Under the pieces are notes generated by a model. The model was given only the letters and a program-made list of their open reading frames with translations, was not told where the DNA came from and made no database searches. Made by a program: the position numbers and the translations under genes. A stretch of 46,614 bases of DNA from assembly GCA_005809105.1 (NCBI GenBank), contig SYLI01000054.1, positions 1 to 46,614 on the forward strand, given 5' to 3'. Below are positions 20,716 to 45,525 of the stretch, one piece after another. This DNA comes from Verrucomicrobiales bacterium. GTDB lineage: Bacteria > Verrucomicrobiota > Verrucomicrobiia > Limisphaerales > UBA1100. Numbering within the stretch: the first letter of the stretch is position 1; every line of letters begins with the position of its first letter.

Positions 20716-21699
20716 ATGAAGACCACCATGAACACACCACGTTTCATCCTTCTGATGTCGTTTGCGCTCACAGCGTCAGGGGCACTTTGGGCAGACGAAA
20801 AATCCGCCATCGCGAAGGTGGAATCACTGGGAGGCACCGTCCTCTACGTGGCAAAAGATTCCAAAGAGTACAATGTCACGATCGCCCACGATGCGACGGC
20901 CCCCAAGAAAATCTCTGCCGACGACCTCAAGGTGCTCTCCGAGTTGGTCAACGCCAATGAGATCGCCTTCATGCACCCCGAGACATCCGACGCCTGGCTG
21001 GCACCCATCAAGTCTCTGGCGGGGCTTAAGCGGCTGCACTTGGAGAAGACCAAGGTCACCGACGCGGGCTTGGACTCGGTCGCCGGTCTCGCCAACTTGG
21101 AGTACCTCAATCTCTATCAGACGGCCGTCACCGACGCGGGCCTGGACAAGCTCAAGAAGCTGGGAAAACTTAAACACCTCTACCTCTGGGAAACCAAGGT
21201 CAGCGAGGCCAAGGCCAAGACGTTTCAGGATGATCTTGCCAAAGCAGGCAACAAGGATCTCTCGGTGAACCTTGGCGTGGACAAGGATCTGCGAAGCGTC
21301 AACGACATCGCGCGCCTGAAAAAGCAGCGCGAGGATTCCGAGAAGATTTCCGCTGCCTCCACCGCCAAAGCCGCCCAGGCCGAAGCGGAAAAGTATGCGG
21401 CCATCAAGGAGCCCAAGTTCGACAAGGATATCCTGCCGCTCATCAAGGTGTCCTGTGGCGAATGCCACAGTGCCGAGAAACCCAAAGGCAAGCTGCGTCT
21501 GGATACCTTTGAAGAACTCAAGAAGGGTGCGGACGGCAAGGCGGTGGTGGTGGCTCAGAAGCCGGACGAGAGCCTGATCTTGAAGCGCATCTCCCTGCCG
21601 GACAGCAATGACGACCGCATGCCGCCCAAGGGCGATCGCCTTTCAAAGCCTGTGGTCGAACTTTTCAAGCGCTGGATCGAGCAGGGCGCCCAGAAGTAG
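20716..21699 (+). CDS. Secreted LRR protein with C-terminal CxxCH (planctomycete-type cytochrome) domain
   Basis: A 327-residue protein with a signal peptide ending near GALWA. Residues about 90-165 hold three leucine-rich repeats (LKRLHLEKTKVTDAGLDSVAGL, LEYLNLYQTAVTDAGLDKLKKL, LKHLYLWETKV). After a charged Ala/Lys/Glu linker, residues about 230-327 form a PSCyt1-type domain (FDKDILPLIKVSCGECHSAEKPKGKL, C247/C250/H251 heme motif, DDRMPPKGDRLS). Known domain combinations of this kind occur in Planctomycetes and Verrucomicrobia near catabolic genes. The role is unknown: redox sensing, or binding of a partner through the LRR face. It follows tRNA-Lys by 55 bases. Confidence 0.85.
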   Translation: MKTTMNTPRFILLMSFALTASGALWADEKSAIAKVESLGGTVLYVAKDSKEYNVTIAHDATAPKKISADDLKVLSELVNANEIAFMHPETSDAWLAPIKSLAGLKRLHLEKTKVTDAGLDSVAGLANLEYLNLYQTAVTDAGLDKLKKLGKLKHLYLWETKVSEAKAKTFQDDLAKAGNKDLSVNLGVDKDLRSVNDIARLKKQREDSEKISAASTAKAAQAEAEKYAAIKEPKFDKDILPLIKVSCGECHSAEKPKGKLRLDTFEELKKGADGKAVVVAQKPDESLILKRISLPDSNDDRMPPKGDRLSKPVVELFKRWIEQGAQK

Positions 21700-23439: not shown

Positions 23440-24018
23440 ATGGAACGCATCTTGGCACTAGTGGAACTGGCAAGGCAGGCGGCGGACGCGCTCGCCGACT
23501 GGGTGGTTCAAGGATTCGACAAGGGCGACTACAAAGTCATCGTCACCGTCTTGGGCGCTGTGGTTCTGGCAGGCGGATTGCTATGGATTTCGCTACGCGA
23601 AGAAACCGTCGTCGTCCACCAGATCGCCGTCAGCGAGGAGGACACCGCCGAAGCCGTGCGCCGCATGAAATCAGCCGGGGGGATTTTGGAACAGGACGCC
23701 AATGGCGAAGTGGCCGCCATCACGCTGACCGACCGCGCCATTTCCGATTCGGGATGGGAACTCGTGGGACGCCTTTACAACCTGCGCAAGCTCGTCTTAC
23801 ACAACTGCAAGGTGGACGAGTCACGCCTTTCGAATCTGGCCGCGTTGGGCGAATTGCGGGTGTTGAGCCTCTCTCACAGCTCGGTTACCGATGCCAGTGT
23901 GGACCACATCGCGATGCTCTCCAACCTGCGTGCGCTAGATTTGCAGGGAACCAAAGTCTCCCGCAAAGGAATCTCGCGCCTGCGTGCGTCGCTGCCAGAC
24001 TGCAATATTGCCAATTGA
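23440..24018 (+). CDS. Membrane-anchored short LRR protein
   Basis: A 192-residue protein with an N-terminal cytoplasmic helix, a membrane segment at about residues 33-53 (VIVTVLGAVVLAGGLLWISL), then an outside region. After a cap (GGILEQDANGEVAAITL) come leucine-rich repeats: LRKLVLHNCKVDESRLSNL, LRVLSLSHSSVTDASVDHI and LRALDLQGTKVSRKGISRL, ending LPDCNIAN. The ATG at 23440 is preferred because a GGAGGAAGG tract lies upstream; starts at 23413 or 23377 are possible. It resembles the C-terminal half of the protein at 44587-45525, including the final LPxC motif. Function unknown, probably a protein-binding surface. Confidence 0.8.
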   Translation: MERILALVELARQAADALADWVVQGFDKGDYKVIVTVLGAVVLAGGLLWISLREETVVVHQIAVSEEDTAEAVRRMKSAGGILEQDANGEVAAITLTDRAISDSGWELVGRLYNLRKLVLHNCKVDESRLSNLAALGELRVLSLSHSSVTDASVDHIAMLSNLRALDLQGTKVSRKGISRLRASLPDCNIAN

Positions 24019-24108: not shown

Positions 24109-24124
24109 TGGCACGGCCCCTGCT
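24109..24124 (+). promoter_or_regulatory. Sigma-54 promoter (near consensus)
   Basis: TGGCACG-GCCC-CTGCT. It matches TGGCACG-N4-TTGCW at every position but one, with the exact GG-to-GC spacing. The predicted start is 12 bases after the -12 C, about 24135, which is where the foldable sequence of the candidate RNA begins. No gene for an enhancer-binding protein is in the window. Confidence 0.6.
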
Positions 24125-24135
24125 ATGTAGAGGTT

Positions 24136-24243
24136 AGGCAATTAACACAGCCCCGAAATAAGACAAATTGTGTTGAGAAATTAGGACTGTAACTTGCCGA
24201 TTAGATCAAGTGAGGCTTGGGAAACCAAGCCTCACTCTTTTTT
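24136..24243 (+). ncRNA. Candidate sigma-54-dependent small RNA
   Basis: About 108 bases between a near-consensus sigma-54 promoter and a strong terminator, with no credible reading frame. Visible pairings are: GGCAA (24137-24141) with TTGCC (24194-24198); inside it TTAACACA (24142-24149) with TGTGTTGA (24169-24176), one G-T pair, enclosing a 19-base loop that contains CCCC; then the 12-bp terminator stem. The 5' edge of the first helix coincides with the predicted transcription start. The C-rich loop could pair with Shine-Dalgarno sequences; this is inference. It is relatively AT-rich for the window. It could instead be the 3' UTR of the upstream LRR gene, whose stop is 118 bases before. Confidence 0.5.
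24209..24243 (+). terminator. Rho-independent terminator, perfect 12-bp stem
   Basis: Arms AGTGAGGCTTGG (24209-24220) and CCAAGCCTCACT (24225-24236), GAAA tetraloop, then C and six T. The strand is + because the T run follows only in that direction. It ends the candidate small RNA and would also stop read-through from the LRR gene toward the convergent SGNH hydrolase gene. Confidence 0.9.
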
Positions 24244-44590: not shown

Positions 44591-45525
44591 GGAGGTGCCC
44601 CCTTGGTGCCGCCGGCGCCCGGAGGCGCAGGCGCCTCGCGCATCACCTCGCATTTGGGCAACGCCTTCTTGATGGCATCCACTTGGTCCTTGGTAATCTT
44701 GGTGTTGCTCAAGTTAAGCTCGGTGAGTTCCGGCAGTTTCTTGAGCACCTCCACCCCTTTGTTGGTGATGGGATTATCGGAAAGATCCAGCACTTTCAAG
44801 TGAATCAATGGTTTGAGATTGGCCAGATCGGCGTCGGTCACGCCGCAGTTGGCCACGCTGAGGCGCTGGAGGTTTTTCAACTCGCTCAAGAGCTTCCAAC
44901 CGTTCGTGCTGATGGGAAGGCTGGGGAAGTGGATGCCGCTGATCTCATTATTCCCATCGCGAGCCATGTGCGCTCCCAGTTCGTTGAGCTTCTTGGCCAC
45001 ATCCAACGTGGTGCCTTTGGCCACGACCTCTTTGGGAAGGGGGCGCTGTTTCTTGCGTAAGGACGAGGTGACTACAAACGCGGCAATGGCGATGACGGCC
45101 ATGAGCAAAACCACCGCCACAATCTGCGTGACGGGGATTCGGGTGCTGGCAGGGGCTGCTTCGGCCTCGGGCTGCTTCGCCGCAGCCTTCGCGGCTGCGG
45201 ATTTGTTTCCCTTCTGCAACCGCCGAACTCGCTCGGCGATCTCCGAGGCGCTCACGGCAGCTCTTGGCGCGGCGGCAGCTGGAGTGGGGTCAGGAGTTGC
45301 AGCTGGTTCCTCAGAAGGCGGATCGGCATCCGCGGTCAAAACTGCGTCATTCGACGGCAAAGCAGTCGAAAAGTCCTCAATTTGGAGGATTTGGACCCAT
45401 TCGGAGAGCCCTTCATACCATACCCAATCGGTGCCTGCCAATGCCCCCTCGCCCAGCATTTGCCGGATTTGCTCAACTGAATAGGGCCCAAATTGTTGGC
45501 CATCCCTATTGACGTGGATTTCCAT
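44587..45525 (-). CDS. GYF_2 domain - transmembrane - LRR protein
   Basis: From the ATG at 45525 it has 312 residues. Residues 1-48 form a GYF_2 domain (MEIHVNRDGQQFGPYSVEQI, then WYEGLSEWVQI). An Ala/Pro/Glu-rich linker with a basic coil (ERVRRLQKGNKSAAAKAAAK) follows, then a membrane helix at about 135-158 (IVAVVLLMAVIAIAAFVVTS) and, outside, leucine-rich repeats: LQRLSVANCGVTDADLANL, LKVLDLSDNPITNKGVEVL and LTELNLSNTKITKDQVDAI, ending LPKCEV. The topology is therefore a cytosolic GYF_2 sensor-like domain and an outside LRR. It is the first gene of a coupled operon with the two unknown proteins, divergent from prepilin copy 2. Confidence 0.85.
   Translation of the reverse strand: MEIHVNRDGQQFGPYSVEQIRQMLGEGALAGTDWVWYEGLSEWVQILQIEDFSTALPSNDAVLTADADPPSEEPAATPDPTPAAAAPRAAVSASEIAERVRRLQKGNKSAAAKAAAKQPEAEAAPASTRIPVTQIVAVVLLMAVIAIAAFVVTSSLRKKQRPLPKEVVAKGTTLDVAKKLNELGAHMARDGNNEISGIHFPSLPISTNGWKLLSELKNLQRLSVANCGVTDADLANLKPLIHLKVLDLSDNPITNKGVEVLKKLPELTELNLSNTKITKDQVDAIKKALPKCEVMREAPAPPGAGGTKGAPP

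Follow-up and report, generated by a model that had tools for sequence, protein, structure and literature searches.

The window, by which is meant the whole stretch of 46,614 nucleotides that was analyzed (contig SYLI01000054.1 of a Verrucomicrobiales bacterium), contains an intergenic region flanked on its 5' side by a gene encoding a leucine-rich-repeat (LRR) protein of 191 aa (23443-24018, same strand as the features below) and on its 3' side by an SGNH/GDSL hydrolase gene that is encoded on the opposite strand and is convergent. Additional LRR-encoding genes are present in the window: a gene at 20716-21699 (+), 2.4 kb upstream of the RNA described below, fuses leucine-rich repeats to a PSCyt1 domain, an architecture that recurs in the gene immediately 5' of the type II RNA in two relatives (G005 and G009), and a gene at 44644-45114 (-) encodes a second LRR protein with 28% identity to the one adjacent to the RNA. 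Between the LRR and SGNH genes, the following features are distinguished:

24109-24124, + strand: -24/-12 sigma-54 promoter, TGGCACG-GCCC-CTGCT (TGGCACGGCCCCTGCT), seen in the sequence, its general form TGGCAYG-N4-NTGCT being shared by all 19 family members
24135, + strand: predicted transcription start (+1), placed by promoter geometry, 12 nt past the -12 C
24135-24243, + strand: predicted small RNA of about 109 nt, type II, supported by matches to models R2 and R3, a kept start-to-3'-motif distance and a fold z of -5.3
24137-24141, + strand: 5' arm of the outer helix P1, GGCAA, paired in the MFE structure with 24194-24198 (p = 0.014 against shuffled 5' arms)
24147-24152, + strand: 5' arm of the inner helix P2, ACAGCC, whose partner is GG-A-CUGU (in 17 members taken together 91% of cells pair, and one double change is compensatory)
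24153-24183, + strand: A-rich loop with UUGUGUUGAGAA, which is also found in the type II copy of G002; most type I copies have GUUGAGGA
24184-24190, + strand: 3' arm of P2, GG-A-CUGU with the A bulged, the best-conserved block of the family
24194-24198, + strand: 3' arm of P1, UUGCC, from the MFE structure and the shuffle test
24209-24236, + strand: intrinsic terminator with a 12-bp stem (AGTGAGGCTTGG/CCAAGCCTCACT) and a GAAA loop, followed by C and six T to 24243, seen in the sequence and matched by terminator hairpins in relatives

An earlier note on this DNA had drawn attention to several of these elements, and most are present as it described them. Specifically, the sigma-54 site, with its -24 GG at 24110-24111 and its -12 GC at 24122-24123, differs from TGGCAC-N5-TTGCW by the single mismatch reported; the terminator stem is a perfect 12 bp closed by a GAAA loop, with a C before the run of six T; and the RNA of roughly 108 bases counted from the predicted start comes to about 109 nt. 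The statement that no reading frame explains the region likewise holds, as no ORF of at least 20 aa lies inside the 109-nt window RNA. The presence of GTTAGGC at 24133 suggested an integron attC site, but inspection by eye showed no suitably oriented R'' box to match it, and this reading was abandoned.

A sigma-54 promoter match taken by itself is weak evidence: 27 sites with two or fewer mismatches occur in the window, compared with 33 expected from shuffled sequence. RpoN is encoded in the window's genome (Sigma54_DBD, E = 3.2e-60), in which TGGCAC-N5-YTGCW occurs 14 times as compared to 7 times for the reversed control, and several of these matches fall in gaps just 5' of genes. As judged by Pfam, the genes behind such matches encode FliO, FliD, glutamine synthetase, and a pilin-like protein; the site upstream of the glutamine synthetase and fliO genes is the exact TGGCACG-N4-CTGCT of the window, and fliD and the pilin gene are preceded by close variants of it. 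Genes of these four kinds are classical sigma-54 clients.

Relatives of the window RNA were not apparent from sequence similarity, as comparison of the intergenic DNA with 58 relatives returned chance-level matches only and a model built from the one sequence (R1) recovered a single relative. Homology first became visible through a structure-aware model and a second copy in the window's own genome (L152, G000:C45:6855-7005, minus strand), which lies 5' of a PSCyt1-PSCyt2-PSD1 gene. This copy was found via a promoter match; it has the 3' motif of the window copy (AAATTAGGTCTGTGACATGCC vs AAATTAGGACTGTAACTTGCC in the window) and a terminator. In the loci of relatives, every motif match is preceded at 74-84 nt by a sigma-54 site. 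A covariance model restricted to the core, with promoter and terminator left out (R2), was searched against 320 genomes of the order, comprising the 20 of the window's own family and 300 others. Within the family, 13 of the 20 genomes gave strong matches (E below 1e-10); among the 300 others, no match was convincing. Weaker R2 matches in G002, G005, G007, and G009, which lack the standard motif, all have a sigma-54 site 24 or 21 nt upstream of the model start (-24/-21), fitting a degenerate promoter pattern with zero mismatches; no such site accompanies the weak matches outside the family. Another weak match, that in G001, corresponds to a type I copy of the long-loop kind whose sigma-54 site is further upstream, and one in G003 falls in unrelated sequence with no sigma-54 site.

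Two further searches bear on the same distribution. Firstly, a composite pattern of promoter and core matched 11 of the 320 genomes, all within the family (reversed control, 1 match). Secondly, an 18-base type I motif identified a single true copy in each of 14 genomes (reversed control, 0 matches). The covariance model and motif searches bring the total to 19 copies, 18 of them beyond the window's, in 15 of the 20 family genomes; the five genomes with no copy include four that are 50-73% complete, the fifth (G013) being 92% complete. At gathering scores, no Rfam model matches the window or five member-bearing loci, and sub-threshold matches to BSnc120, sX12, and FasX were set aside, since the alignments rest for the most part on the terminator hairpin.

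The position of the window copy is not shared by the genome of the same genus. When synteny was followed via the SGNH gene, that genome was found to have a sulfatase gene directly after SGNH and no same-place ortholog of the window copy, and none of the SGNH-bearing loci that were retrieved contains a family copy. The SGNH genes of several other loci (L065, L066, L069, L071 and others) are 77-85% identical to the window's gene, which is of verrucomicrobial type; the records are titled Akkermansia muciniphila, Klebsiella pneumoniae, or Proteobacteria, and these titles look like misassigned metagenome bins.

Across the 19 member loci (51.9 kb, searched on the strand of the RNA), the pattern TGGCAYG-N4-NTGCT, which was defined after the members were known, occurs 19 times, once per member and nowhere else. 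The window and C45 copies were found via their promoters, and the search that found the other 17 excluded the promoter. The distance from predicted start to 3' motif is 49-59 nt in 17 of the 19 copies, the exceptions being the long-loop type I copies of C45 (107 nt) and G001 (81 nt), and in every short member the first position of the R2 core is no more than a few bases away from the predicted start; the DNA surrounding the promoter is otherwise variable. The -24/-12 promoter lies at the right distance from the predicted 5' end of the RNA in 19 of 19 members. At the other end, all 19 copies terminate in a strong hairpin and a T-rich tail. In the 15 members tested, the terminator hairpin past the core (z -3.2 to -6.4) is the strongest structure in every copy, and the stem sequence of the window terminator differs from those of its relatives. 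What raises the individual signals above chance is that related genomes repeat all three elements, promoter, RNA core, and terminator, with a spacing that hardly varies. Their conservation supports the central proposal of the earlier note, that of a stand-alone sRNA gene equipped with a sigma-54 promoter and a terminator of its own.

These data bear directly on whether the region is instead the 3' UTR and terminator of the LRR gene (23443-24018), next to which a promoter-like sequence has arisen by chance. The terminator does sit 190 nt past the LRR stop on the same strand, and, as noted above, promoter matches of this quality are not rare, but the homologous RNAs follow unrelated genes and every one of them has the promoter, making this account highly improbable. 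That most relatives have no LRR gene upstream also agrees with the view, already put forward in the earlier note, that the RNA is separate from the LRR mRNA tail. Equally, it might be supposed that the transcript is a short mRNA for a small protein, since AAGG-N8-ATGCCTCG, which includes an apparent start codon, is present in most type I copies. The frames that follow, however, vary in both length and sequence, that of G001 stops after three codons, and neither the window copy nor any other type II copy has such a frame. With no ORF conserved across the family, a coding function is hardly credible.

The predicted fold of the RNA is organized around the inner helix P2, in which ACAG-CC pairs with GG-N-CUGU, N being bulged. 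Over the family, 91% of P2 cells pair, compared to 24-42% when the pairing is slid 1 to 3 columns toward the 3' end. In G002 a double change converts ACAG/CUGU to ACCG/CGGU, and in the g4 genomes ACAGAC faces GUCUGU with the bulge missing. The covariation called for as a check of the stems is modest, as it comes down to one double change and its score is reached by 28 of 500 shuffles. The outer helix varies by clade (GGCAA/UUGCC in the window, AGGCA/UGCCU in G003, CGAGG/CCUCG in g5, and CAGG(U)/(G)CCUG in type II), giving a combined p of 0.005 over six clade representatives; it is weak and not significant in the g4 genomes or in G002 alone. Taken together, these comparisons lend moderate support to the predicted P1/P2 fold. 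The z of -5.3 for the 109-nt window RNA is mostly owed to the terminator; the core alone gives about -2.0 to -2.2, and in most members the core folds weakly once the terminator is left out (-0.0 to -2.2).

The earlier note had described a GGCAA/TTGCC helix enclosing an 8-bp hairpin with CCCC in its loop. The helix is part of the MFE structure. TTAACACA (24142-24149) is indeed able to pair with TGTGTTGA (24169-24176), giving 8 bp including one G-U, but this hairpin is outside the MFE structure of the 109-nt RNA and is not conserved. Of the four C in CCCC, the conserved helix takes up two as pairing partners, and the suggested role of CCCC as a seed against Shine-Dalgarno sequences finds no support, type I having ACAGAC or ACAGCC and no C run at that place. 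When RNAalifold was applied to the plain alignment, a GAGG/CCUC pairing (GTTGAGGA with GCCTCG), in which the GAGG belongs to the conserved loop, was preferred for type I, with P1/P2 as the alternative; the window copy is unable to form it. GAGG/CCUC may represent one of two alternative states of the type I RNA. The g4 fold was also considered as a kink-turn, an idea given up because the GA pairs are not conserved.

Folding was also compared between strands, and the minus strand of 24135-24206 in the window folds better than the sense strand (z -4.4 vs -2.2), which is not so for most relatives. One could therefore read the minus strand as the functional one, carrying a structured 3' element of the SGNH gene or a DNA hairpin. 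The promoter and U-tract indicate the plus strand, however, the antisense fold is no better in most relatives, and no T tract follows either hairpin on the minus strand, leaving this reading a very slim chance.

The 19 copies fall into two paralogous types, and several species hold two paralogs per genome. Type I comprises 14 copies marked by GGTCTGTGACATGCCTCG and usually lies 170-200 nt past a gene of the enolase superfamily (MR_MLE domains); it is followed by a gene for a small LRR lipoprotein, a PSCyt1-PSCyt2-PSD1 gene, or a convergent gene. Type II comprises five copies (the window, G002, G005, G007, and G009), and in a small tree of the cores the window copy falls among the type II copies (support 0.87 and 0.78). 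The types also differ upstream of the promoter: an exact TTCACGC is found 69-101 nt 5' of the -24 element in 14 of 14 type I copies (for example, about 80 nt in L170), and it is absent upstream of the window copy and of those type II copies with enough upstream sequence. TTCACGC is a possible enhancer-binding-protein site for type I, and its presence in all type I copies and absence from type II suggests that the two types may answer to different signals.

In many type I genomes a same-strand gene starts 90-170 nt past the 3' motif. At such loci cis effects are possible, and the arrangement raises the question of whether the element is a sigma-54 leader whose regulated terminator, acting in the manner of an attenuator or riboswitch, controls the same-strand gene downstream, often that for the small LRR lipoprotein or a PSCyt1/PSCyt2/PSD1 protein. 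A leader of this kind is difficult to reconcile with the window and G003, where the next gene is convergent, with the variation in the downstream gene across genomes, and with the window copy having no conserved antiterminator pairing; we consider it unlikely. For the window RNA in particular, cis control of an adjacent same-strand gene is not expected because the downstream gene is convergent.

The explanation that best accommodates these findings is that the region is very probably a stand-alone gene for a regulatory RNA of about 109 nt, belonging to a previously undescribed family of sigma-54-dependent sRNAs that act in trans. The conservation of promoter, core, terminator, and spacing, and the division into two paralogous types, are features of the aligned genomes; from them we infer that the RNA is transcribed, with RpoN as the driver, and works in trans. 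In the proposed mechanism, sigma-54 RNA polymerase would wait at 24109-24124 for activation by an enhancer-binding protein, whereupon transcription would begin at about 24135. The RNA would then fold into an interrupted stem, composed of P1 (GGCAA/UUGCC) and P2 (ACAG-CC/GG-A-CUGU) and capped by the A-rich loop, and the transcript would end at the terminator at 24209-24243. Most likely the RNA would act in trans, through base pairing with mRNA or through protein binding, by way of the conserved loop and 3' arm. The A-rich loop (UUGUGUUGAGAA; GUUGAGGA in type I) and the 3' arm are the likeliest points of contact with targets or proteins and also the best-conserved unpaired or partly paired stretches.

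No sigma-54-dependent sRNA described in Verrucomicrobiota was found in the open-access literature. A family with a clear promoter, sharp ends, and, in several species, two paralogs in one genome hence offers a concrete entry to RNA regulation, a subject little studied in this phylum, and its discovery illustrates that a promoter-anchored reading of a single window can uncover an RNA family missing from Rfam.

Among sRNAs of other bacteria, GlmY is transcribed with sigma-54 from a promoter whose upstream activating sequences are the binding sites of an enhancer-binding protein (PMC6075780; PMC3162934). GlmY and GlmZ of the Enterobacteriaceae form a homologous sRNA pair, and the two paralogous types and predicted sigma-54 control described here resemble that arrangement. 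In contrast, there is no Rfam match, and so no detected homology in sequence or structure, and the phylum and the neighboring genes are different. By analogy, types I and II could constitute a homologous pair of sigma-54 RNAs that respond to different activators and cooperate, for example with one RNA imitating the other or serving as its decoy in the manner of GlmY/GlmZ, having evolved independently in Verrucomicrobiota; such a pairing is conceivable and rather doubtful. The Qrr sRNAs of the Vibrionaceae are likewise sigma-54-dependent, with NtrC-type activation in which more than one activator is possible (PMC10162802). The new family shares with Qrr the predicted sigma-54-dependent control and differs in having no homology to the Qrr Rfam models. 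CrcZ of Pseudomonas is a protein-sequestering RNA. It belongs, as a carbon-responsive sRNA, to the CbrB/sigma-54 network (PMC6296734, PMC8871633). The family described here is similar to CrcZ in its predicted sigma-54 control, and no sequence match between the two was found.
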